A DNA stretch of 64,000 nucleotides, taken from positions 244,801 to 308,800 of the forward strand of contig NZ_WWFA01000002.1 of NCBI RefSeq assembly GCF_021698855.1. The letters are read 5' to 3'. Each line of letters starts with the position of its first letter. The first letter of the stretch is position 1. Position numbers and translations under genes: made by a program. Positions 3,081 to 18,111 of the stretch are shown here, piece by piece. The notes below the pieces were generated by a model. It saw only the letters and a program-made list of their open reading frames with translations, was not told the DNA's origin and made no database searches. Source of the DNA: Lactobacillus sp. S2-2. GTDB lineage: Bacteria; Bacillota; Bacilli; Lactobacillales; Lactobacillaceae.

Positions 3081-3439
3081 TAACGTCTACGTAATGATTC
3101 TTTAATACGAGCAGCTTTACCATGTAATTCACGTAAGTAGTAAAGTTTAGCACGACGTACTTGACCACGTCTAATTACTTCAACTTTAGCGACTCTTGGT
3201 GAATGTACTGGGAAGATACGTTCAACACCCACACCAGAACTGATTTTTCTAACTGTGTAAGTTGCTTGAATTCCAGCACCATGACGTTTAATTACGACAC
3301 CTTCGAAATTTTGAATACGTTCACGACTACCTTCAACAACCTTAACTGATACTCTTACAGAGTCACCAGCACGGAATTCAGGAATATCTGAACGTAATTG
3401 TTCATTATTGATTTTACTAATCAAATTATTTTGACGCAT
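3080..3439 (-). CDS. rplS: 50S ribosomal protein L19
   Basis: Large-subunit protein near the interface with the small subunit. The 119 residues show the typical L19 features [20 protein letters not shown] (about residues 22-41) and a basic C-terminal end rich in Arg. It is the last gene of the rpsP-khpA-rimM-trmD-rplS block but has its own promoter and a leader RNA that matches the Firmicute L19 leader. It is therefore probably under separate autogenous control. Confidence 0.98.
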
Positions 3440-3519
3440 AATATATAAACTCCTTTAACTAGCATTCATAACTTAATTTAGACAGCGGAATACCGTTTTA
3501 TTTGGCTAAGCCAGCATTT
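3440..3519 (-). promoter_or_regulatory. Ribosomal protein L19 leader RNA
   Basis: The untranslated region before rplS contains, on the minus strand, the segment TGCTGGCTTAGCC followed by ACGGTATTCCGCTGTC. This resembles the Firmicute L19 mRNA leader, a proposed L19 binding structure. Recognition is by eye; a covariance-model scan would settle it. Confidence 0.7.
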
Positions 3520-3548
3520 ATTATAACATTTTTATTTTATTAAAGTAA
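3520..3548 (-). promoter_or_regulatory. rplS promoter
   Basis: TATAAT (3520-3525) lies 17 bp from TTACTT (3543-3548) on the minus strand, just before the L19 leader and after the end of trmD. Confidence 0.65.
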
Positions 3549-5510: not shown

Positions 5511-6950
5511 TTATTTTCTTTTTTTATTTCTTTTCTTTTTATTTTTTTGTATTTTTCTAGACATACGTTTCATAGCTATATTGGATAACTTTCCACCCAT
5601 TCCACTACCCATACCTGAGCTATTCATCATACCTTCCATTTCAGAAAAATTACCATTTGATACTTTTGACATCATTTCTTTCATACTATTAAATTGTTTT
5701 ATTAAACGATTAACTTCTTGAATTGATCTTGCTGAACCTGCCGCTATTCTTCTTCTTCTGGAAGGATTTAAAATATCTGGATTTAATCGTTCTTCTTTAG
5801 TCATTGAATAAATTATTGCTTTAATATGATCCATATCTTTTGGATCCATTTGTACATTTTGTAAAGTAGGATTATTTGCCATTCCAGGAATCATTTTAAT
5901 TAAATCTTCCATTGGACCCATATTTTGAATTTGTTGCATTTGATCAAGAAAATCCTCAAAATCAAAAGTATTTTCTCTCATTTTTTCAGTTAACTTTTGT
6001 GCTTGATCTTCATCATATTCTTTTTGAGTTTTTTCAATAAGAGATAGCATATCTCCCATTCCCAAAATTCTTGAAGCCATTCTATCTGGATGAAATTTAT
6101 CTAAATCAGATAGTTTCTCACCTTGTCCAACAAATAAAATAGGTTTTTCAGTTACTGATCTAATTGATAAAGCAGCTCCACCACGTGTATCACCATCTAA
6201 TTTTGTTAAAACAACTCCAGTTATATCTAATGCATCATTAAATCCTTCTGCAGTTTTAACAGCATTTTGTCCAGTCATTGCATCAACAACTAAAAGAATA
6301 TTATCTGGTTTAGCAACTTCTTTTACATCTTTTAATTCTTGCATTAATGCTTCATCAATTTGGAGCCTACCAGCTGTATCAATTAAAACATAATCATTTT
6401 TATCTTCTTTTGCTTGTTTTAATCCATCTTCAACTATTTTAACTGGATCTACATCTGTGCCTTCTTGAAAAACTGGTACATCAATTTGGCTTCCTACTTG
6501 TTGTAATTGATCAATTGCTGCTGGACGGTAAATATCAGCAGCAATTAAAAGAGGTCTAGCATTATTTTCATCTTTTAATTTTTTTGCTAATTTACCAGCA
6601 GTTGTTGTTTTACCAGCACCTTGAAGTCCTGACATCATAATAATTGTTGGTATTTTTTCTGATTGAATAAGATCAGTAGAATCGTCACCCATCATTTTTG
6701 TTAATTCCTCATTAACAATTTTAATGATTTGTTGTGATGGATTTAAACCTTCTAATACATCACTACCTTTTGATCTTTCTTGAACTGTTTTAACAAATTT
6801 TCTAACAACACTAAAATTAACATCAGCTTCTAATAATGCTAATCTAATTTCTCGCATCGTTTCTCTTAAATCTGCTTCAGTTATTTTACCTTTACCACGT
6901 AAATTTTTAAACGCTTTTTGTAATCGTTCAGTTAACCCTTCAAAAGCCAT
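5511..6950 (-). CDS. ffh: Signal recognition particle protein Ffh
   Basis: SRP54 GTPase that binds signal sequences on the ribosome with 4.5S RNA and delivers them to FtsY. The 479 residues contain the N-domain helical bundle, the G domain (GLQGAGKTTTAGKLA, DTAGRLQ, TKLDGDTRGG) and a Met-rich M domain. The protein ends in a Gly/Met stretch and a Lys/Arg-rich tail. It follows ylxM by 12 bases; ylxM-ffh is the standard pairing. Confidence 0.98.
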   Translation of the reverse strand: MAFEGLTERLQKAFKNLRGKGKITEADLRETMREIRLALLEADVNFSVVRKFVKTVQERSKGSDVLEGLNPSQQIIKIVNEELTKMMGDDSTDLIQSEKIPTIIMMSGLQGAGKTTTAGKLAKKLKDENNARPLLIAADIYRPAAIDQLQQVGSQIDVPVFQEGTDVDPVKIVEDGLKQAKEDKNDYVLIDTAGRLQIDEALMQELKDVKEVAKPDNILLVVDAMTGQNAVKTAEGFNDALDITGVVLTKLDGDTRGGAALSIRSVTEKPILFVGQGEKLSDLDKFHPDRMASRILGMGDMLSLIEKTQKEYDEDQAQKLTEKMRENTFDFEDFLDQMQQIQNMGPMEDLIKMIPGMANNPTLQNVQMDPKDMDHIKAIIYSMTKEERLNPDILNPSRRRRIAAGSARSIQEVNRLIKQFNSMKEMMSKVSNGNFSEMEGMMNSSGMGSGMGGKLSNIAMKRMSRKIQKNKKKRNKKRK

Positions 6951-7320: not shown

Positions 7321-8688
7321 TTACTCAACGATAAATAAATCTTTAAATAGTCCATAAATAAAGTCATTAGCATCAAATTCTTTTAAATCATCAACCTTTT
7401 CACCTAATCCAACTAATTTTACTGGTATTTTCATTTCATTTCTAATAGCAAAAATGATTCCACCTTTAGCTGTTCCATCTAGTTTAGTTAGTACAATTCC
7501 AGAAATATTAGTTACTTCATTAAATAATTTTACTTGACTAATTGCATTCTGACCAGTTGTTGCATCAAGAACTAATAAGGTTTCATGTGGTGCATCTGGA
7601 ATTTCCCTTTTAATAATTTTATTTATTTTAGATAATTCATTCATTAGATTAACTTTATTTTGAAGTCTTCCAGCAGTATCAATAAACAAAGTATCATAAT
7701 TTTCTTTTTTTGCCTTATTAATTGCTTCGTACACTACTGACGCAGGATCACTTTTTTCTTCTTTTTTGACTATACCAACATTATCTCTAATTGCCCATTC
7801 ATTTAATTGTTCAATTGCTCCTGCACGAAAAGTATCAGCTGCTGCTAAAAGAACTTTTTTCCCATTTTTATGATATTGATTAGCCATCTTCCCAATTGTA
7901 GTTGTTTTTCCTACTCCATTTACACCAGTAAATAAAATTACAGTAGGACCATTTTTAGACTCACTAATTGATATATTATCATCAGAATTATTTTCTTCAT
8001 AAATTTCAATCATTTTTTGAACAATTACATTTTGCACATCATTTGTTTTCTTTACATTTTTTAATTTAACTTCTTCTTTTAAAGAATCAACGATTTGCAT
8101 TGATGTTTCAAAACCAACATCTGATTCAATTAAAGTATCTTCTAATTCTTCAAAAAAATCTTCATTAATTGTTCTGAATTTAGAAAAAATCTTATTAAGT
8201 TTTTGACCAAAAGAAGAACTTGATTTAGCTAATCCTTTTTCATAAGATTTCTCTTTTGAATCTTCAGAATCATTTTGTTCATCTGTATTTACTTTTTCTT
8301 TAACGTTATTATCAGATTCATTTTCTTCCGAATTCAATGATATTTCTTGTTGTGTATTAACGGAATCATTGCCATCATCAGGTTCTTCATCTGTATTTAC
8401 TTTTTCTTCAACGTTATTATCAGATTCATTTTCTTCTGAATTCACTGATACTTCCTGTTGTGTATCATCAGAATCATTTGTGTCATCATTTTGTTCGTCT
8501 GTATCTAATTTTTCTTCAACATTATTATCAGGTTCATTTTCTTCTGAATTCACTGCGTTTTTTTGTTGTATATCATCAGAATTATTCGTAACCTCATTTT
8601 GTTCATCTTTATTTGATTTTTCTTCAACATTTGTTACTTTATTTTTTTCTTTCTCTTTCCTTTTCTTAAAAATATCAAAAAGTCCCAT
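7321..8688 (-). CDS. ftsY: Signal recognition particle receptor FtsY
   Basis: Membrane-associated SRP receptor GTPase. After a basic N-terminus (GLFDIFKKRKEKEK) comes an acidic A domain made of about 3.5 tandem 36-residue repeats (residues 20 to about 148). The NG domain follows, with GVNGVGKTTTIGKMA, DTAGRLQ and TKLDGTAKGG. The 455-residue length is above the usual for lactobacilli because of the repeats. The ATG overlaps the smc stop by one base, so translation is probably coupled. Confidence 0.97.
   Translation of the reverse strand: MGLFDIFKKRKEKEKNKVTNVEEKSNKDEQNEVTNNSDDIQQKNAVNSEENEPDNNVEEKLDTDEQNDDTNDSDDTQQEVSVNSEENESDNNVEEKVNTDEEPDDGNDSVNTQQEISLNSEENESDNNVKEKVNTDEQNDSEDSKEKSYEKGLAKSSSSFGQKLNKIFSKFRTINEDFFEELEDTLIESDVGFETSMQIVDSLKEEVKLKNVKKTNDVQNVIVQKMIEIYEENNSDDNISISESKNGPTVILFTGVNGVGKTTTIGKMANQYHKNGKKVLLAAADTFRAGAIEQLNEWAIRDNVGIVKKEEKSDPASVVYEAINKAKKENYDTLFIDTAGRLQNKVNLMNELSKINKIIKREIPDAPHETLLVLDATTGQNAISQVKLFNEVTNISGIVLTKLDGTAKGGIIFAIRNEMKIPVKLVGLGEKVDDLKEFDANDFIYGLFKDLFIVE
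8245..8631 (-). repeat. Tandem 108-bp coding repeat in ftsY
   Basis: Three full copies (8524-8631, 8416-8523, 8308-8415) and one partial copy of a unit encode NVEEK...DEQN...SDD.QQ...NSEENE.DN. The third copy has drifted (DEEPDDGNDSVN). All copies stay in frame. This is an acidic linker that could vary in copy number between strains. Confidence 0.88.
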
Positions 8689-11600
8689 TAATCAATTCCT
8701 CCAATATTATTTTTAGCTGTTTCTAAATTAACTGATAAAACATTTGATATTCCAGAATTTTGCATAGTAATACCATATAAATTATCAGCATAAACCATCG
8801 TTTCTTTTCTATGAGTAATTACAATAAATTGTGTATCTTCTTTTAAACGAGACATATAACGTGCAAACCTATCTACATTAGCAGAATCAAGTGCTGACTC
8901 TGCTTCATCTAAAATAATAAAAGGAACTGTTTTAACTTGTAAAATTCCAAATAACAAAGCTAATGCAGTTAATGATTTCTCTCCACCAGAAAGTAAAGAT
9001 ATATCTCTTTGCTTTTTACCTGGTGGTTGAACAATTATTTCAATTCCAGTACTCAAAACATCATTTGAATCGGACATTTTCAAATGAGCGGTTCCACCTT
9101 CAAATATACTTTTAAATGTTTGAGAAAATTTATCGTTTACTTCATTAAAAGTCTTTTTAAATCTATTTTTAACTTCATTGTCTATATTTTTCATTATTTT
9201 ATTAAGATTAGACTTTGAATTTTCTAAATCCTGTTTTTGATGGTTCATAAATTCATATCTTTCATTAATTTCATTAAAAATATCAATTGTACTTGTATCT
9301 ACAGGACCAAGTATATTTAATTCTTTTCTTGTTATTTTTTCTAAATTATAAATTAAATCACTATCAAGAATATTTTTTTCTTCATCGAAATCTGAGATTG
9401 CTTGATTTAAATTAATATCAAAATTATCTTTCAATTCTTTTAATTGTGTTGCTATATTTTCATTATTAATTGTTAATTTACTATTTAGTTTTTCAGTTAA
9501 TTTTACATTTTTCAAAGAAATACTTTGATAGGTTTCAATATTTTTATCTAAATTAAACATTTTAGATCTTTCAAAATTACTTTCTTGATTAATTTTATCA
9601 ATTTCAATTTGCATATTATCAATTTCTTTTTTTAAATTATCTAATTGACTTTGATCTAATTTATGATTTTCACTATTAAGTTTTTTTAACTCAATAATTT
9701 TATTTTTCTTTTCATTTATAAAGTTATTTTCATTTTCTTTTTGACTATAAAAATTATCTAATTGAGTTTTTGTATTTTCAATATTATTTTTAACTGATTT
9801 GAGTTTCTCACTTAGTTTAAATTTATTCCTATCAAGATCAATAATTTTATTATTATTATTATCTAAATCTATTTTCAAATTATCAATTTCTTTTTTTAAA
9901 TTATTTGATAAAGATTTTTTTGAATTAATTTCATCTTTAATCTTATTAATATATATTAAATAATTACTAGATTGTGAACCATCAAATTTATTTAAATTTT
10001 GTTTTTGATTTTTGATTAAGCCATTTAAATCATCAAATTCTTTTTTCTTTACTTGTAAATCAATTCTTTTTTCTTCAAGTATATTAGAAATATTATCTAA
10101 TTGTTGAGATAATTCATCAATTTTATTACTGTTTTCAGATATTTTATTTTTAGTATTTTCAATAATTATATCTTTATCGTTTATTTCGTTTTTTAAATTA
10201 ATTAGTTTATTTTTTTGACTTATATTTCCATTATTATTTTTTAATATTTTACCACCAGTAATAGACCCGCCAGCATTAATAACTTCACCAGCTAAAGTAA
10301 CTACTTGAAATCTTTTATTAACTAAGCTACTTATTTTTCTAGCATTCCTTAAATTATCAGAAATGATTATATTTCCTAATAAATATTGTTTAATGCTATC
10401 AAATTTTTTATCTATCTTAATTAAATTAGAAGCAATATCTATAAAACCTTTAACATTTCTAATTGATAATAAAATATTTGAATTAATTACTTTTTTAGTT
10501 AAATCGCCATTAGGTAAAAATGTAGTTCTTCCTAATTTATTTTGGGATAAATATTGAATTGCATTTTCAGCTGCACTTTGATTTTTAACAATAATTTGCT
10601 GTGTACGATTTCCTAAAGCTGTATCAATTGCTAGAGCGTACTGATCATCTGTATCAATAAATTCAGATACAGCACCGTAGATTCCTTGAAGTTTATCTTT
10701 ATTTTTTAAAATATTTTTTGATCCATTATAAAAATTATTATAATTTTGAAATGAATTTTTAATACTATTATATTCAGCCTTTAATTTATGAATTGTACTA
10801 ACTTCTTCATACCATTTTGATTTTAATTGTTCTAATTCATCATTTAATTTATTTATTTTATTTTTTAAATCAAGGGAATTATCAGTATATTTATCAATAT
10901 TTAATTTTGAATCTTCAATTTCTTTTTCAAATCTATTATATAAATCTATATTTTCGCTTAATTGTTTTTTTAAATTCTCTTTATCTTTAGCTGAAAAATT
11001 ATTTTTTTGATTATTAATTTCTGTTTCGTAATTTACTTTATTTTCTAAATTAGAAATACTTTGCATTAATTGAAAATATTCATTTTGATTATTTTCAATT
11101 AATTTTTTGATTTGATCATTTTTATTTTTATAAAATTGCACATTGATATCATTTAACTTAATGTTTAACTGATTTTCTATTTTTTTGTTTTCTTGAATTG
11201 ACTTTTTTAAATCATCAATATTTGTACTATAATTTTTAATCTTATTTTTATTTAAAATCAAATCATTTTCAATTTCATTAATTCTTTGCTGATTAAAATT
11301 CTCTTTTTGAAACACCAATTGTGAATTATTACTTTCATTTTGATAAATTTGAGTTTTTTCTAATAATGAATTATGCAATTTTTCTCTCTTTTTATCTAAT
11401 TCATTTAATTTATTTTGTAAATTAGTTCTTTTATTTTTAACTTGGAGTAATTTATTATTATTGTTTAATTCATTTTCATTTAGTGTTTTAAGTTTATTTT
11501 CTAATTCTATTTTATTATCAGCTTGATTACTAACACCTAAAATAAGACGATTTTTATAAAAAAATCTATTATATTTATTTAAATATAAATATTTTTTTGC

Positions 11601-12233
11601 TTTTATAGCTTGATTTTCAAGATTATTTATTTGTGTTTTTAATTCATTTGTATGATCAGTTATTCTTAAAAGATTCTGTTTAATATCATCTAATTTTTTT
11701 AATGTTGTTTCCTTTTGCTTTTTATATTTAAAAACTCCAGCCGCAGTTTCAATTACCTGTCTTCTATTTTCAGAATTACCGTCAATGATTTCATTAACGT
11801 TTCCTTGAGAAATAATTGAAAACGAACCTTCACCTAACCCTGTATCTAAAAATAAATTTTTAATATCTTTTAATCTACAGATATTTTCATTTATATAATA
11901 AGAACTGTCACCATTTCTATATAACTTACGCTTTACTGTAACCTCTGAATATTCTGTATTTAAAAAATAATCTTCATTATCAAAATTTATACTAACTTCT
12001 GCTAAATTTAATGCACTATGATTTTTAGAACCTGAAAAAATTACATCTTGCATTTTGTTACTTCTTAAATTTTTAGAAGATTTTTCTCCTAATACCCATC
12101 TAATGGCTTCAATTACATTACTTTTTCCGCTTCCATTTGGACCAACTACCGCAGTAATACCATTATGATAATTAATTATAGTTTTATTCATAAAAGACTT
12201 GAATCCATTTATTTCAATTGATTTAAGTTTCAA
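8688..12233 (-). CDS. smc: Chromosome segregation protein SMC
   Basis: Condensin ATPase. The 1181 residues show an N-terminal head with Walker A (VVGPNGSGKSNVIEAI, about 30-45) and two long Asn/Lys/Glu-rich coiled coils. A hinge lies near 500-660 (GIYGAVSEFIDTDDQYALA; AGGSITGGK). The C-terminal head has the signature LSGGEKSLTALALLF and Walker B PFIILDEAESALD. The coiled coils are unusually rich in Asn and Ile, in line with the AT-rich DNA. It sits between rnc and ftsY, the conserved order. Confidence 0.98.
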   Translation of the reverse strand: MKLKSIEINGFKSFMNKTIINYHNGITAVVGPNGSGKSNVIEAIRWVLGEKSSKNLRSNKMQDVIFSGSKNHSALNLAEVSINFDNEDYFLNTEYSEVTVKRKLYRNGDSSYYINENICRLKDIKNLFLDTGLGEGSFSIISQGNVNEIIDGNSENRRQVIETAAGVFKYKKQKETTLKKLDDIKQNLLRITDHTNELKTQINNLENQAIKAKKYLYLNKYNRFFYKNRLILGVSNQADNKIELENKLKTLNENELNNNNKLLQVKNKRTNLQNKLNELDKKREKLHNSLLEKTQIYQNESNNSQLVFQKENFNQQRINEIENDLILNKNKIKNYSTNIDDLKKSIQENKKIENQLNIKLNDINVQFYKNKNDQIKKLIENNQNEYFQLMQSISNLENKVNYETEINNQKNNFSAKDKENLKKQLSENIDLYNRFEKEIEDSKLNIDKYTDNSLDLKNKINKLNDELEQLKSKWYEEVSTIHKLKAEYNSIKNSFQNYNNFYNGSKNILKNKDKLQGIYGAVSEFIDTDDQYALAIDTALGNRTQQIIVKNQSAAENAIQYLSQNKLGRTTFLPNGDLTKKVINSNILLSIRNVKGFIDIASNLIKIDKKFDSIKQYLLGNIIISDNLRNARKISSLVNKRFQVVTLAGEVINAGGSITGGKILKNNNGNISQKNKLINLKNEINDKDIIIENTKNKISENSNKIDELSQQLDNISNILEEKRIDLQVKKKEFDDLNGLIKNQKQNLNKFDGSQSSNYLIYINKIKDEINSKKSLSNNLKKEIDNLKIDLDNNNNKIIDLDRNKFKLSEKLKSVKNNIENTKTQLDNFYSQKENENNFINEKKNKIIELKKLNSENHKLDQSQLDNLKKEIDNMQIEIDKINQESNFERSKMFNLDKNIETYQSISLKNVKLTEKLNSKLTINNENIATQLKELKDNFDINLNQAISDFDEEKNILDSDLIYNLEKITRKELNILGPVDTSTIDIFNEINERYEFMNHQKQDLENSKSNLNKIMKNIDNEVKNRFKKTFNEVNDKFSQTFKSIFEGGTAHLKMSDSNDVLSTGIEIIVQPPGKKQRDISLLSGGEKSLTALALLFGILQVKTVPFIILDEAESALDSANVDRFARYMSRLKEDTQFIVITHRKETMVYADNLYGITMQNSGISNVLSVNLETAKNNIGGID

Positions 12234-12249
12234 ATAAAAACCTCATTTT

Positions 12250-12939
12250 TTATTGGATTTCTTTAATAGCTTTTTGAGCAGCTTTTTGTTCTGCTTCCTT
12301 TTTGGAATGGCCAAATCCAACTCCAAGTTCTTTATTATCAACCATTAAAGATACTTCAAATTCACGATTATTTTCCGGACCTTTTTCTTCATTTAATAAA
12401 TATTCTATTTTGACTGGCCCATCTTTTTGAACTAGCTCTTGTAATTCAGTTTTATGATCAAAAAATTCATCAAACCAGCCATCATCAATTTTTGGGAAAA
12501 TAACAATATTACAAAAATTTACTACTTTTTCCATACCTTGATCTAAATAAACTGCACCAATAAATGATTCAAAAATATCACATAATAATGAATCACGATG
12601 TCTTGCATTAGCCTTTTCTTCACCTTTACCTAGTCTAATATAATTTTCAAATTGGCATTCTCTAGCAAATTGGCTAAAACTATGTTCATTTACCATGGCA
12701 GCTCTTAATCTAGTTAATCTTCCTTGTGGCAAATTAGGATATCTTTCGAATATATAATCAGAAACAACTAATTGATAAACTGCATCGCCCAAAAATTCTA
12801 ATCGTTCATAAAACTTAAGATTTTGATTAGGATGTTCATTAACATATGATCCTTGTGTAAATGCCTCATCCAATAAAGATTCATCATTAAATTCAATATC
12901 AAATCTATTTTTTAACAATATTTTAAATTGCTTATCCAA
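12250..12939 (-). CDS. rnc: Ribonuclease III
   Basis: Double-strand-specific endoribonuclease that processes rRNA precursors and structured mRNAs. The catalytic signature ERLEFLGDAVYQLVVSDYIF and a C-terminal dsRNA-binding domain (HSKKEAEQKAAQKAIKEIQ) are clear. I place the start at the TTG at 12939 because a GGAGG lies 7 bases upstream. The in-frame ATG at 12966 would put that GGAGG inside the gene. This gives 229 residues, the usual length. It lies between the ACP-like gene and smc. Confidence 0.96.
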   Translation of the reverse strand: MDKQFKILLKNRFDIEFNDESLLDEAFTQGSYVNEHPNQNLKFYERLEFLGDAVYQLVVSDYIFERYPNLPQGRLTRLRAAMVNEHSFSQFARECQFENYIRLGKGEEKANARHRDSLLCDIFESFIGAVYLDQGMEKVVNFCNIVIFPKIDDGWFDEFFDHKTELQELVQKDGPVKIEYLLNEEKGPENNREFEVSLMVDNKELGVGFGHSKKEAEQKAAQKAIKEIQ

Positions 12940-13016
12940 AATAATACCTCCAAAATTTTCTAACATTATTATATCATTTTTGTACTAAAGAAATAGACTT
13001 CGTCGATAGACGAAGC

Positions 13017-13283
13017 CTATTTCTTTTTACTTTTTTTAGTCTTTTTTGTTCTATCAATAATTAAGTCTACTAATTGACCAAGTGTATCAATACCTTCAGC
13101 CTCAGTATTTGATATTTGTTCATCAAATTCATTTTCTAATTCAACAATAAATTCTGCTAAATCAATAAAATCAGCTCCTAAATCTTTAGTGATATTCATA
13201 TTTTCACTAATAAGATTTGGATCTACATCAAAATTCTCTAAAACTATTTTCTTTATTTCTAAAAAAATAACTTCTCTATTCAT
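13017..13283 (-). CDS. Acyl carrier protein-like, without prosthetic-group serine
   Basis: 88-residue ACP-fold protein in the usual acpP position between plsX and rnc. Helix II reads DLGADFIDLAEF, where family members have D-S-L/I-D. Residue 39 is therefore Phe (TTT) instead of the Ser that carries 4'-phosphopantetheine. The rest is ACP-like (acidic helices, ELENEFD), except for a Lys-rich C-terminal tail (TKKTKKSKKK). It cannot be a normal acyl carrier if the reading is right. It could be a degenerate remnant or an ACP-like protein with another, perhaps binding, role. The ORF itself is intact with a GGAG ribosome binding site. Confidence 0.85.
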   Translation of the reverse strand: MNREVIFLEIKKIVLENFDVDPNLISENMNITKDLGADFIDLAEFIVELENEFDEQISNTEAEGIDTLGQLVDLIIDRTKKTKKSKKK

Positions 13284-13313: not shown

Positions 13314-14324
13314 TTATTTTTCAGTATTATTTTGATCATTATCAAAATAATCATTAATTGAATTAGTTAATTCAGAATTAACAATATTTTTAATTTCAAC
13401 TAAAGAATTTTTAACTGTTTTAGCTTTACTACTTCCATGACTTTTAACAACCGGAGCTTTTAATCCTAATAATAAGGCACCACCATATCTAGTATAATCC
13501 ATCTTTTTACCAACATCTTTAAAAGAATTTTTAAGTAATAATGCACCTATTTTTGATTTCATTCCATTACTCTTGATCTCTTTTTTTATTAAATTCATCA
13601 TTGATAATGCTGTACCTTCAATTGTTTTTAAAACGGCATTTCCAGTAAATCCATCTGTAACAGCAACATCTGTAACTCCATTTAATAAATCTCTAGATTC
13701 AATATTTCCAATAAAATTAATTGAATCCATTTCACTTAACATTTCGAACATTTCACGATGTTGAATATTACCTTTGTCGCTTTCAGTCCCATTGTTAATC
13801 AACCCAATTCTTGGATTATTAATTTTTTTAACATTTTCTGCATAATATTTTCCCATCAATGCATATTGTTTAACATTTAATAACTTTGTATCTGCATTAG
13901 CACCACAATCAATCATTGTGAATCCCATATCATTATCAATGACTGGTAATGTAGTAGTTAATCCTGGGCGATCAATACCTTTTATACGACCAATAATTAA
14001 TAAGCCGGCAACCATGATAGCTCCTGTATTTCCAGCTGAAAATAACGCATCAGAATTACCTTCTTTAACCGATTTTGCTGCTAAAACTAAACTTGAATTT
14101 TTCTTCTTTTTAATTGCTTTAGTTGGTTCATCATCCATTGAAATATATTCTTCAGTATGGTGAATTTCTATACTATCATCATTTTTAAGATATTTTTTTA
14201 TTTTATTTTGATCACCAAAAAGTTGATAAATGACATCAGAATTAATATCTCTTGCTTGTTCCACGCCTTCAATTATTTCCCTTGGTGCATAATCTCCACC
14301 CATTGCATCAATAGCTATTTTCAT
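13314..14324 (-). CDS. plsX: Phosphate acyltransferase PlsX
   Basis: Peripheral membrane enzyme that interconverts acyl-ACP and acyl-phosphate, feeding PlsY in phosphatidic acid synthesis. It has 336 residues from the ATG at 14324 (MKIAIDAMGGDYAPRE), which has a GGAG site 6 bases upstream. The in-frame ATG at 14357 lies inside recG. Motifs include LFSAGNTGAIM and the ending HGSSKAKTVKNSL. Its acyl-group partner would be ACP, yet the adjacent ACP-like protein lacks its serine. Confidence 0.96.
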   Translation of the reverse strand: MKIAIDAMGGDYAPREIIEGVEQARDINSDVIYQLFGDQNKIKKYLKNDDSIEIHHTEEYISMDDEPTKAIKKKKNSSLVLAAKSVKEGNSDALFSAGNTGAIMVAGLLIIGRIKGIDRPGLTTTLPVIDNDMGFTMIDCGANADTKLLNVKQYALMGKYYAENVKKINNPRIGLINNGTESDKGNIQHREMFEMLSEMDSINFIGNIESRDLLNGVTDVAVTDGFTGNAVLKTIEGTALSMMNLIKKEIKSNGMKSKIGALLLKNSFKDVGKKMDYTRYGGALLLGLKAPVVKSHGSSKAKTVKNSLVEIKNIVNSELTNSINDYFDNDQNNTEK

Positions 14325-14334
14325 AATATTCTCC

Positions 14335-16362
14335 TTAATCCAATACATTATCTTCATTATAAAGATTAATTTGTTTTATCAATTTCAAATTATCATTATC
14401 TAATTCCCAATTTTCAGAACTAACAATTTGTTTGGCTGTTTTTTGAGCCTCAACCAAAATATTAAAATCAGAAATAGGATCTCCAATTTTAAAATGTTCA
14501 AATCCAGACTGCCTATCACCTAATATTTCTCCGGAGCCTCTTAATTCTAAATCTTTTTGAGAAATATAGAAACCATCATTAGATTCACACATCACTTGCA
14601 TTCTTTTGGCAGCAATTTCATTTTTAGGTTCGGATATTAAAATACAATAAGACTGTTTAGTTCCTCGCCCTACACGACCTCTTAATTGATGTAATTGAGA
14701 CAATCCAAAATGGTCAGCATCATAGATTACCATAATACTTGCATTAGAAATATCAACACCAACCTCTATAACAGTAGTAGAAACCAAAATATCTATTTCA
14801 CCATTTTTAAATAATTCCATTTTTTCATTTTTTTCATTTTCTTTCATCTGTCCATGAAGAAAATCAATATTGAAATTTGAATTAATTCTGTTATTTAATT
14901 TATTAAAAATTGAATTAACATTATTCATATCTAAATTTTCAGATTCCTCAATTAAAGGAACAACCACGTATACTTGTTCTTTTTCTTCTAAATGATTTTC
15001 TAAAAATTTGACTAGATTATCAAATTGAGAAGGTCTAATCCAATTAGTTATTATCTTTTGTCTTCCTTTTGGTAATTCATCAATAATTGATAAATCCATT
15101 TGACCATAATTAGTAATTGTTAATGTTCTTGGAATCGGTGTTGCTGTCATTGCCAAGATATTATTAGATGCACCTTTTTCTCTTAATTTCTTTCTTTGAT
15201 TAACACCAAAACGATGTTGTTCATCAATAATTGATAATTTTAAATCATTATAACTGATTTCATCTTGAAATAATGTATGTGTACCAATAAGTAAATCAAT
15301 AGAACCATTTTCAATTTTTGGTATTAATATCTTTCTAGCACTACTTTTAGTGCTCCCAGTTAATAATGCAATATTAATTGGAAATTTTTCAAACATTTTT
15401 GATAATGAATCCGCATGCTGTTCAGCTAATATTTCGGTAGGTGCCATTAAAACAGATTGGTTTCCATCTAAATAATTAGCATAAATACTTAGAGCTGCAA
15501 TAACTGTTTTCCCACTTCCAACATCTCCTTGAAGTAATCGATTCATTGAGTAAGGTTTATCTAAGTCGCTCAAAATTTCTTTTAATACTTTTTTTTGAGA
15601 ATTTGTTAAAACAAATTTTAAAGAATTTTCAAAGTTAGTAATTTCATTTTCTTTTATATTAATTCTATATTTATCATTAATTTCTCTTTTTGTTTTAATT
15701 AATTGTAAACTCAATTGATATAAAAAAAATTCATTAAACTTTGCGGTTCTTTTTGCAGATAAAGCATCTTCTTTACTATCTGGAAAGTGCATATTCTTAA
15801 TAACATAATTTTGATTAGCTAATTTATATTTTTTGATAATCCAATCTGGTAAGAAATTTTCAATCTTATCTTTATATAAATTATATGCTTGTTCAATTGT
15901 TTTTTTTATAATTTTATCACTAACCAGTTTGTTTGATGGATAAACTGATTCAAAAGTATCGGAATTACTTTCATCAAGTATTTTTAATCCAGTTAAACTT
16001 TTTTTCTTAGCGTCATATTTACCAAAAACAATTATCTTTTTCATTTCTTTTATTTTATTAATTAACCAAGGCTGATTGAAAAAAGTAATAAAAATAATTT
16101 GATTATCTACTTTTAAAGAGAATCTTAAAATACTTTTTTTCCTGGCAATATATCTAACCGTAGGTTCACTACTAATATCACCCATTATAGTTATTTGTTC
16201 ATTATCTTGAATATTATCAAGATTTTGTACTGTAAAATCTTGATAACGATAAGGGAAATAATTTAAAAGATCATTAATAGAAAAAATATTTAATTTATTG
16301 AAACCTTGTATCCTTTTTGGACCAATTCCATTCAAAACCGAAATATTATCTCTTAAATCCAA
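14335..16362 (-). CDS. recG: ATP-dependent DNA helicase RecG
   Basis: Branch-migration helicase that rescues stalled replication forks. It has 675 residues from the TTG at 16362, chosen because GGAGG stands 8 bases before it. The in-frame ATG at 16398 lies inside the fakA terminator stem. Motifs are GDVGSGKTVIAALSIY (Walker A), DEQHRFG (DEAH-like), TATPIPRT and the motif V-VI region HQLRGRVGRGTKQS. The wedge domain is N-terminal. It is placed between fakA and plsX as in related Firmicutes. Confidence 0.97.
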   Translation of the reverse strand: MDLRDNISVLNGIGPKRIQGFNKLNIFSINDLLNYFPYRYQDFTVQNLDNIQDNEQITIMGDISSEPTVRYIARKKSILRFSLKVDNQIIFITFFNQPWLINKIKEMKKIIVFGKYDAKKKSLTGLKILDESNSDTFESVYPSNKLVSDKIIKKTIEQAYNLYKDKIENFLPDWIIKKYKLANQNYVIKNMHFPDSKEDALSAKRTAKFNEFFLYQLSLQLIKTKREINDKYRINIKENEITNFENSLKFVLTNSQKKVLKEILSDLDKPYSMNRLLQGDVGSGKTVIAALSIYANYLDGNQSVLMAPTEILAEQHADSLSKMFEKFPINIALLTGSTKSSARKILIPKIENGSIDLLIGTHTLFQDEISYNDLKLSIIDEQHRFGVNQRKKLREKGASNNILAMTATPIPRTLTITNYGQMDLSIIDELPKGRQKIITNWIRPSQFDNLVKFLENHLEEKEQVYVVVPLIEESENLDMNNVNSIFNKLNNRINSNFNIDFLHGQMKENEKNEKMELFKNGEIDILVSTTVIEVGVDISNASIMVIYDADHFGLSQLHQLRGRVGRGTKQSYCILISEPKNEIAAKRMQVMCESNDGFYISQKDLELRGSGEILGDRQSGFEHFKIGDPISDFNILVEAQKTAKQIVSSENWELDNDNLKLIKQINLYNEDNVLD

Positions 16363-16385
16363 TCGTATCCCCTCCTTAATCAAAA

Positions 16386-16412
16386 AACTGTTAGTCATTT
16401 AGACTAACAGAA
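16386..16412 (-). terminator. Terminator after fakA
   Basis: Stem CTGTTAGTC/GACTAACAG followed by a T-run on the minus strand, just downstream of the fakA stop at 16423. It overlaps the upstream in-frame ATG of recG, supporting the later TTG start. Confidence 0.8.
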
Positions 16413-16422
16413 TTTTATCCTT

Positions 16423-18111
16423 TTATTCAACAGAAACAATTAATGGATAAACTGGTTGATTTCCTTCATGCACTTCAACTTCAATTTCATCATCAATTTC
16501 AGAAATAGCATCAGATATTTTTTGTGCTTCATCCATTGAACTATCAGAACCATAGATAATGGTTACATTTTCACTATCATCATCAATCATTTTTTTTATC
16601 ATTTTAATTGAGGCTTCTACTAAATTATCATCTAAAACAGTTATTTCACCATCAATAATTCCCATATAGTTACCTTTTTTAATATCTAAATTATTAAATT
16701 TAGTATCTCGAACAGCAACTGTAATCTGACCATTAGAAACATAATCTAAAGAATCTTCCATCATTGAAACATTTTCTTCAATTGATTCATCAGGATTATA
16801 AGAAAACATTGCAGACAATCCTTGAGAAATATTTTTAGAATGAACAACTAATAGTGGAATATCAGTTAACTTAGATGCTTGTTCAGCAGCTAAGAAAATA
16901 TTTTTGTTATTCGGCAATATAATCGCCTTTTTAGCATTACTATTATTTACAACATCAACTATATCCTGAGTACTAGGATTCATGGTTTGACCACCATTTA
17001 TAGTGTTAGTAACACCCAAACTTTTAAATAATTTTTGAATTCCTTCTCCTGAAGAAACAGAAATAATGGCAGTATCTGGTGATTCTACTTCAGTTTCTGG
17101 TTTACCATTATCATTAGGTTGATCTTTAGCCATTATTTCTTCTTGTTGTAACCTCATATTATCAATTTTAACATTGGCTAAATCACCAAAAGTTTGTGCC
17201 CATGATATAACTTTCCCTGGTTGTTCAGTATGAACATGAACCTTAGCGATTTCATCATCATTAATCACTAATAAAGAATCACCTAAATTAGATAAATAAT
17301 CATAAAATTGTTGATAATCGAATTTTCTAGTAACTTGTTTTCCCTTACCAATTCTAATCATCACTTGAGTACAGTATCCATAAACAATATCTTCTGGATT
17401 TATTTTTCCTTGAACACTCTCATGTTCTTCATCAACCATTGTACTCATAGATTCATTTTCATCATTATTTTCAACAACATCATTATTTACTTCTCTATCA
17501 TTAAGAATATCGGCAAAACTTTTAAGTACAAATACAAGTCCTTGACCACCTGAATCAACAACATTTACTTCTTTTAAAACAGGAAGTAAATCTGGAGTTG
17601 TTTTTAAAGCTTTATCAGCTTCTTCAGCAATTTCATCAGCTAATTTTGCAACATCATTTGTTTCTTTTACAATATCTTGTCCTTTTTTAGCAGCACATCT
17701 AATTACAGTTAATATGGTACCTTCAGTTGGCTTCATTACAGAAGAATAAGCAGTCTTAGCAGCCACCAAAACTGCATTAGCATAATCATTTGCATCAGCC
17801 TCAGATATTCCATCAAGAGAATTAGCAAATCCCCTAAATATCTGAGACAAAATAACTCCTGAATTACCTCTAGCTCCCATTAATAAGCCTTTAGCTAAAG
17901 CATTAGCTTTTTCAGAAATAGATGTTGAATTATCCTTAACAACATAATCATATCCACTTGAAAAAGATAAATTCATATTTGTTCCCGTATCGCCATCTGG
18001 TACCGGAAAAACATTTAATGAATTTATAAAGTCGGCATTATTTTTAAGATTAATTGAACCCGCTTGAACCATCTGTTCAAACTTTTTTGTAGAAATTTTT
18101 GTTAATGTCAC
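16423..18111 (-). CDS. fakA: Fatty acid kinase subunit FakA (YloV)
   Basis: ATP-binding subunit of fatty acid kinase, which phosphorylates FakB-bound exogenous fatty acids to acyl-phosphate. The 562 residues show an N-terminal DhaL/DAK2 domain (FPVPDGDTGTNMNLSF; GARGNSGVILSQIF), an acidic linker and a middle domain. That domain has a Cys (YGYCTQVMIR) and two His (KVHVHTEQPG) matching the zinc ligands of FakA. A C-terminal FakB-like domain follows. It starts with GTG behind AGGGGG. It is downstream of yloU, the standard pair. Confidence 0.95.
   Translation of the reverse strand: MTLTKISTKKFEQMVQAGSINLKNNADFINSLNVFPVPDGDTGTNMNLSFSSGYDYVVKDNSTSISEKANALAKGLLMGARGNSGVILSQIFRGFANSLDGISEADANDYANAVLVAAKTAYSSVMKPTEGTILTVIRCAAKKGQDIVKETNDVAKLADEIAEEADKALKTTPDLLPVLKEVNVVDSGGQGLVFVLKSFADILNDREVNNDVVENNDENESMSTMVDEEHESVQGKINPEDIVYGYCTQVMIRIGKGKQVTRKFDYQQFYDYLSNLGDSLLVINDDEIAKVHVHTEQPGKVISWAQTFGDLANVKIDNMRLQQEEIMAKDQPNDNGKPETEVESPDTAIISVSSGEGIQKLFKSLGVTNTINGGQTMNPSTQDIVDVVNNSNAKKAIILPNNKNIFLAAEQASKLTDIPLLVVHSKNISQGLSAMFSYNPDESIEENVSMMEDSLDYVSNGQITVAVRDTKFNNLDIKKGNYMGIIDGEITVLDDNLVEASIKMIKKMIDDDSENVTIIYGSDSSMDEAQKISDAISEIDDEIEVEVHEGNQPVYPLIVSVE

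Follow-up and report, generated by a model that had tools for sequence, protein, structure and literature searches.

An AcpB-type acyl carrier protein with phenylalanine in place of the phosphopantetheine serine in a genus of Lactobacillaceae

Introduction

In Enterococcus faecalis, the acyl carrier protein (ACP) AcpB interacts with PlsX differently than AcpA does, and the available part of the source argues that AcpB supplies the acyl-ACP needed by FabT (PMC6509188). For the mitochondrial ACP (mACP) of Plasmodium, the accessible text describes an F113A substitution that abolishes Isd11 binding and a modelled Phe113 pocket that includes Val117 (PMC8547962). The BLAST survey in the same source reported ACPs without the serine from Apicomplexa and one chromerid and from no other organisms (PMC8547962). 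Within the open-access literature, we found no published account of a bacterial serine-less ACP. Here, we describe an ACP gene of Lactobacillus sp. S2-2, lying behind plsX in a window (the whole stretch of DNA that was analyzed) of 64,000 nucleotides. An initial annotation had reported Phe in place of the phosphopantetheine serine at residue 39 of its product, and the minus-strand open reading frame, its TTT codon, and the presence of Phe in 9/9 plsX-linked ACPs from the genus confirm that observation.

Results

The window gene is an acpB orthologue

The plus-strand reading of positions 13017-13283 contains many stops, and the coding frame lies on the minus strand, where the gene order is FakA/YloV-type, recG, plsX, ACP, rnc, and smc-like (Table 1). 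The ACP frame starts with ATG and encodes 88 residues (...KDLGADFIDLAEFIVELE..., with Phe as residue 39), the full sequence being DLGADFIDLAEFIVELE with TTT as the Phe39 codon. A functional phosphopantetheine carrier (AcpP or AcpB) needs a Ser where helix II begins; the window protein has Phe39 there instead. The C-terminal tail is rich in Lys; the window protein has 8 basic residues among its last 15, compared to 2-6 for the other eight plsX-linked ACPs of the genus. The product of 16423..18111 scored below the FakA_VfrB equivalog cut-off (657.3 vs 975).

Table 1. Positions of the ACP gene, its Phe39 codon, and the neighboring genes within the window.
Feature	Position	Strand	Basis
AcpB-type acyl carrier protein lacking the serine, 88 aa, DLGADFIDLAEF	13017..13283	-	ORF, profiles, relatives, AF2 model, Foldseek
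Phe39 codon (TTT), in place of a codon for the phosphopantetheine serine	13167..13169	-	Read from sequence
plsX, phosphate acyltransferase, directly upstream of ACP gene	13314..14357	-	TIGR00182, 372.8 bits (cut-off 243.4)
rnc, ribonuclease III, directly downstream of ACP gene	12250..12966	-	TIGR02191, 240.4 bits (cut-off 166.25)
Presumed smc-like chromosome protein gene, downstream of rnc	8688..12233	-	Named from sequence
recG helicase	14335..16398	-	Profile scan
FakA/YloV-type fatty acid kinase subunit	16423..18111	-	YloV cut-off passed (638.5 vs 396.1)

The window protein passed the cut-offs of PF00550 (33.7 bits, cut-off 20.8) and of the NF002150 "acyl carrier protein" model (75, cut-off 66), and it missed the TIGR00517 equivalog cut-off (60.5 vs 70.45). 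AlphaFold2, provided with 9 orthologues as input, predicted a four-helix ACP of moderate confidence (mean pLDDT of 75.9) in which helix II starts at Phe39. The 50 PDB matches listed by Foldseek were all ACPs or ACP-containing complexes, as judged by title, and they included the Enterococcus ACP 2n50 (TMt 0.85). In a quick tree of 79 columns, the plsX-linked ACPs of Lactobacillales grouped together (SH-aLRT 99), and 10 fab ACPs of Lactobacillales were separate from them (SH-aLRT 97). All 9 linked ACP genes of the genus lie directly downstream of plsX, a trait of AcpB orthologues, and the remaining genome of the 10 has no ACP there. The window gene is an orthologue of acpB, the auxiliary ACP gene found behind plsX in many Lactobacillales.

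Phenylalanine is the state of the genus

We surveyed 150 loci for the amino acid that an ACP linked to plsX or rnc has at the serine position. The window's genus was sampled by 10 species genomes, including the window's own (G000) and the records of Fructilactobacillus lindneri (G009), F. fructivorans (G006), and F. florum (G008); nine of these have Phe and one has no linked ACP. Ser was present in 27/27 other Lactobacillaceae (one genome each from 27 genera) and in 21/21 linked ACPs read from other Lactobacillales (n = 23, with none in the stretch read for two). The Phe codon is TTT in eight species and TTC in one, and the plsX-linked ACPs of the genus are 36-45% identical to the window protein; as relatives, the nine Phe proteins are not independent draws. 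Ser in relatives, which the initial annotation had set against its reading, thus occurs outside the genus and Phe inside it, and what was first seen as the oddity of one cell is a genus-wide state and has a counterpart in one family of Clostridia (20/20, see below). In G005, only 84 bases (2360-2443 of the locus read) separate the plsX stop from the rnc start; the ACP gene is missing and is therefore dispensable in that species.

A draw from the class Clostridia (99 genomes, 78 with plsX, 8 of these, including G060, being outside the loci counted here) provided 70 of the 150 loci, with Ser in 21 and no ACP within the stretch read in 49. The pattern D[LF]xADF[ILVM]D, which covers Phe alone, matched 35 rows from 32 genomes in a set of 398 Bacilli genomes, a set with only three genomes (the window's own included) that are marked as belonging to the window's family; five rows had no locus, and among the 30 loci read, the sole ACP was the window's own. 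Scanning a named collection, which may omit near records, for DLGADF[VI]D plus FIVE[IL]E[DN]E gave 169 matching stretches and, from these, four relatives: three from Fructilactobacillus and one from a Clostridia metagenome-assembled genome (MAG), G060.

A carrier ACP and fatty acid synthesis genes are encoded elsewhere

Two proteins of the window's genome matched PF00550, the plsX-linked ACP and a fab-operon ACP with the DSLD motif. Within the fab operon, fabZ, fabH, fabF, and fabI each exceeded an NCBIfam cut-off, a fabD-like gene fell under that of TIGR00128 (238.2 vs 260.9), and fabG, accB, accC, accD, and accA were identified by eye. One protein above the PF01648 cut-off is the candidate phosphopantetheinyl transferase; NCBIfam models gave no match to this protein at 1e-20. 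Fab-type ACPs were present in 10/10 genus genomes, with a second one in 9/10 (the window's own genome being the exception), and all 19, read with no motif filter applied, have DSLD. The second fab-type ACP of G005 and G007 (DSLD; positions 9881-10141 of one locus and 3265-3540 of the other) adjoins a transferase-like gene that was recognised by eye.

These findings support the assignment of the carrier role to the fab-operon ACP, with FASII genes and a transferase present. The initial annotation had proposed that this role was lost or moved to another ACP and had called for a genome check; another ACP with DSLD, the transferase over the PF01648 cut-off, and the fab and acc genes were all found. 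Its further suggestion that the cell may rely on exogenous fatty acids is not supported, given the fab operon and the PF01648 transferase. Because FASII genes and the FakA/YloV-type gene are both present, the de novo and exogenous routes both look open.

The FabT co-occurrence described for E. faecalis AcpB is missing from the genus: a single query at E 1e-8 matched 0/10 of its genomes, and the same query matched 35/60 genomes overall. The fabZ and fabH genes are adjacent in G000, G005, and G007, with no fabT between them (6165-6190 of one locus read). Twelve Lactobacillaceae outside the genus also had no FabT match, and in 10 of these there is a single ACP match, a protein that must remain a carrier. 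Loss of FabT is permissive for serine loss and not sufficient for it, because Ser is kept in the other two of the twelve, G032 and G034, each with two ACP matches, and in G013, for which the FabT match is weak (1.9e-10).

A parallel in Clostridia

In the family of G060, the ACP of the plsX-rnc locus has Glu in 16 members, Leu in two, Val in one, and Phe in one, the last being G060 itself, with Ser in 0/20. DSLD was present in 10/10 second ACPs read from this family, and no second ACP was found in G060, a MAG of unstated completeness. Glu at the +5 position (counted from the serine site) is kept in 20/20 of the family and mostly lost in the window's genus, so the two lineages differ in the detail of their serine-less ACPs. 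For the order of G060, 59 genomes were sampled (57 with plsX, 49 loci read), yielding 11 with Ser, one with Pro, one with Ala, 32 with none, and four already included in the family count. The Pro (G185) and Ala (G207) replacements in plsX-linked ACPs come from single Clostridia genomes that are neighbors in the tree (support 87) and thus may represent one further event of serine loss.

A quick tree of 125 rows placed the Phe proteins of the genus apart from the serine-less Clostridia proteins, and, with the site column removed, at least three changes between Ser and non-Ser were needed. An AU test of one serine-less clade gave p 0.81, from a poor search in which the constrained tree scored 24 log units higher. 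For a set of 53 rows (seven long rows removed in advance, G179 included by choice, and the remainder of each group drawn randomly), placement of the genus with Lactobacillales was preferred by 22.4 log units, with an AU p of 0.085 for the rival, which is above 5%. A shared origin is the less favoured reading, although the AU tests did not reject it; the case for two separate origins is built chiefly on gene order and on the Ser that the relatives of each lineage have.

Selection, helix II remodelling, and alternative explanations

The ratio dN/dS was obtained for ACP pairs (36 in total, nine without finite dS). The two unsaturated pairs within the genus gave 0.011 (G003-G004, dS 0.44) and 0.15 (G001-G007, dS 0.17), and the 21 finite pairs that do not involve the window protein ranged from 0.011 to 0.33, most with saturated dS. 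Six finite pairs of the eight that include the window protein gave 0.26-0.67, with dS there uncertain; by comparison, PlsX gave 0.13-0.25 over 3 finite pairs and the fab ACP 0.05-0.30 over 7. Purifying selection across the genus is clear; since the ratios of the window-protein pairs exceed those of PlsX and the fab ACP, constraint looks weaker on the branch of the window protein, which is long and AT-rich. In most distant pairs, the plsX-linked ACP had a higher dN than PlsX, and its dN was also higher than that of the fab ACP in those distant pairs for which the two were compared. The initial annotation was correct that the frame is intact, as it is in 9/9 plsX-linked ACPs of the genus, and its claim of a retained function is well supported at the genus level, with selection being less clear on the window's own branch.

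Conservation is concentrated around the site. Among the nine plsX-linked genus ACPs, 15 of 20 columns in the loop and helix II are invariant, compared to 9 of the remaining 60 columns (Fisher p 1.5e-6), and the pairwise identity of this region is 0.89 compared to 0.77 for the more diverse Ser-type Lactobacillaceae. The +4 position is Ala in 9/9 of the genus vs Val in 26/27 Ser-type Lactobacillaceae. The +5 Glu, present in all Ser types (27/27 Lactobacillaceae and 21/21 other Lactobacillales), is kept in one of the nine genus ACPs, that of the window; we take this residue to be the counterpart of Glu-41 in Vibrio harveyi and to matter for ACP function.

The window-protein ratios (0.26-0.67 in finite pairs) and the faster protein change than in PlsX for most distant pairs would be expected if AcpB were a relict, left jobless by the loss of FabT (0/10 genus genomes), deprived of its serine, and drifting slowly toward the loss already seen in 1/10 genomes. 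We consider this scenario unlikely in view of the ratios of 0.011 and 0.15 for the unsaturated pairs, the single invariant replacement residue, a helix II that is the best-kept region, and the intact frame in 9/9; conservation weakens the case for decay, less so for the window's lineage.

Another proposal looks downstream of the ACP gene, where rnc and then the smc-like gene are found, and takes the partner to be the SMC complex or RNase III, with a role in chromosome organisation or RNA processing like that of apo-AcpP with MukB. The accessible portion of one report states that apo- and holo-AcpP of E. coli stimulate the MukB ATPase comparably (PMC8602292), and the reading frames of the ACP and rnc overlap or directly adjoin each other in several G060-family genomes. 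We regard such a partner as improbable, for the argument rests on gene order and on analogy with MukBEF, which is another SMC class, and work on E. faecalis links the orthologue there to PlsX and FabT (PMC6509188).

Continued carriage by way of another modified residue is very unlikely: although the protein passes the cut-off of one general ACP model and a transferase is present, none of the nine genus ACPs has Ser, Thr, or Cys from six residues before the site to 12 after it, and the sole invariant residue of these types is Thr79, near the C-terminus. A sequencing error or strain-level mutation, for all that TCT and TTT differ by a single base, is refuted by Phe in nine species genomes, encoded by both TTT and TTC and found for three of them in named records as well.

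Discussion

AcpB of this genus has lost its carrier residue; the replacement is fixed in 9/9 linked ACPs, helix II is conserved, an intact carrier ACP is encoded elsewhere, and no FabT match was found. The explanation that we prefer, with a probability of roughly two in three, is that AcpB became a phosphopantetheine-free, protein-binding ACP in which Phe anchors the recognition helix and for which PlsX is the likeliest partner. The "ACP-fold partner" offered as one option by the initial annotation is the best reading. The serine of the acpB orthologue would have been lost in the ancestor of the genus, ending acyl carriage in the known way, and the ACP fold would have been retained for binding proteins. 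At the start of helix II, Phe may replace the prosthetic arm as a hydrophobic anchor, accompanied by the Val-to-Ala change at +4 and, in 8/9 species but not the window's, by loss of the +5 Glu.

Protein binding through Phe39 is probable. The choice of PlsX as partner is tentative; PlsX is the likeliest candidate because its gene is co-oriented and closely linked with that of the ACP, which might regulate PlsX or serve as its docking subunit, independently of acyl chains, with carriage left to the fab-operon ACP. A broader proposal, which we hold to be doubtful, is that, on more than one occasion, the plsX-linked second ACP evolved into a phosphopantetheine-free protein that serves phospholipid initiation (PlsX) as a subunit or a regulator, by a Ser-to-Phe change like that of the malaria mitochondrial ACP in one lineage and mostly by Glu, whose charge could mimic the phosphate of the arm, in another.

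A conserved bacterial ACP without the serine would split carrying from binding in ACP biology. A PF00550 match or an "acyl carrier protein" label is not proof of a carrier. In this food bacterium the carrier ACP is a different gene, and deletion or mutation of AcpB therefore need not disturb fatty acid synthesis.

As described in the available parts of the respective sources, three known systems share features with the window ACP. E. coli AcpP resembles it in acting on MukB without the prosthetic group, the apo form being active; unlike the window ACP, AcpP is an essential carrier that keeps its serine (PMC8602292). The window ACP shares with E. faecalis AcpB its position behind plsX, its identity as an ACP by profile and predicted fold, and its status as a second ACP besides that of the fab operon; it differs in that the E. 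faecalis protein has retained the serine, becomes acylated, and provides FabT with acyl-ACP, whereas Phe is present here and FabT was not found (PMC6509188). The closest working parallel would be the mACP of Plasmodium falciparum, in which Ser is likewise replaced by Phe at the same position (PMC8547962). The +4 position that changes from Val to Ala in the genus is the position of Val117 in that protein. The Plasmodium mACP is eukaryotic and mitochondrial, unlike the window ACP, and binds Isd11-Nfs1; mitochondrial FASII was lost there whereas FASII genes are present here, and common origin is not implied (PMC8547962). Its protein-binding role has been demonstrated in Plasmodium, where it works without an acyl-phosphopantetheine arm (PMC8547962).
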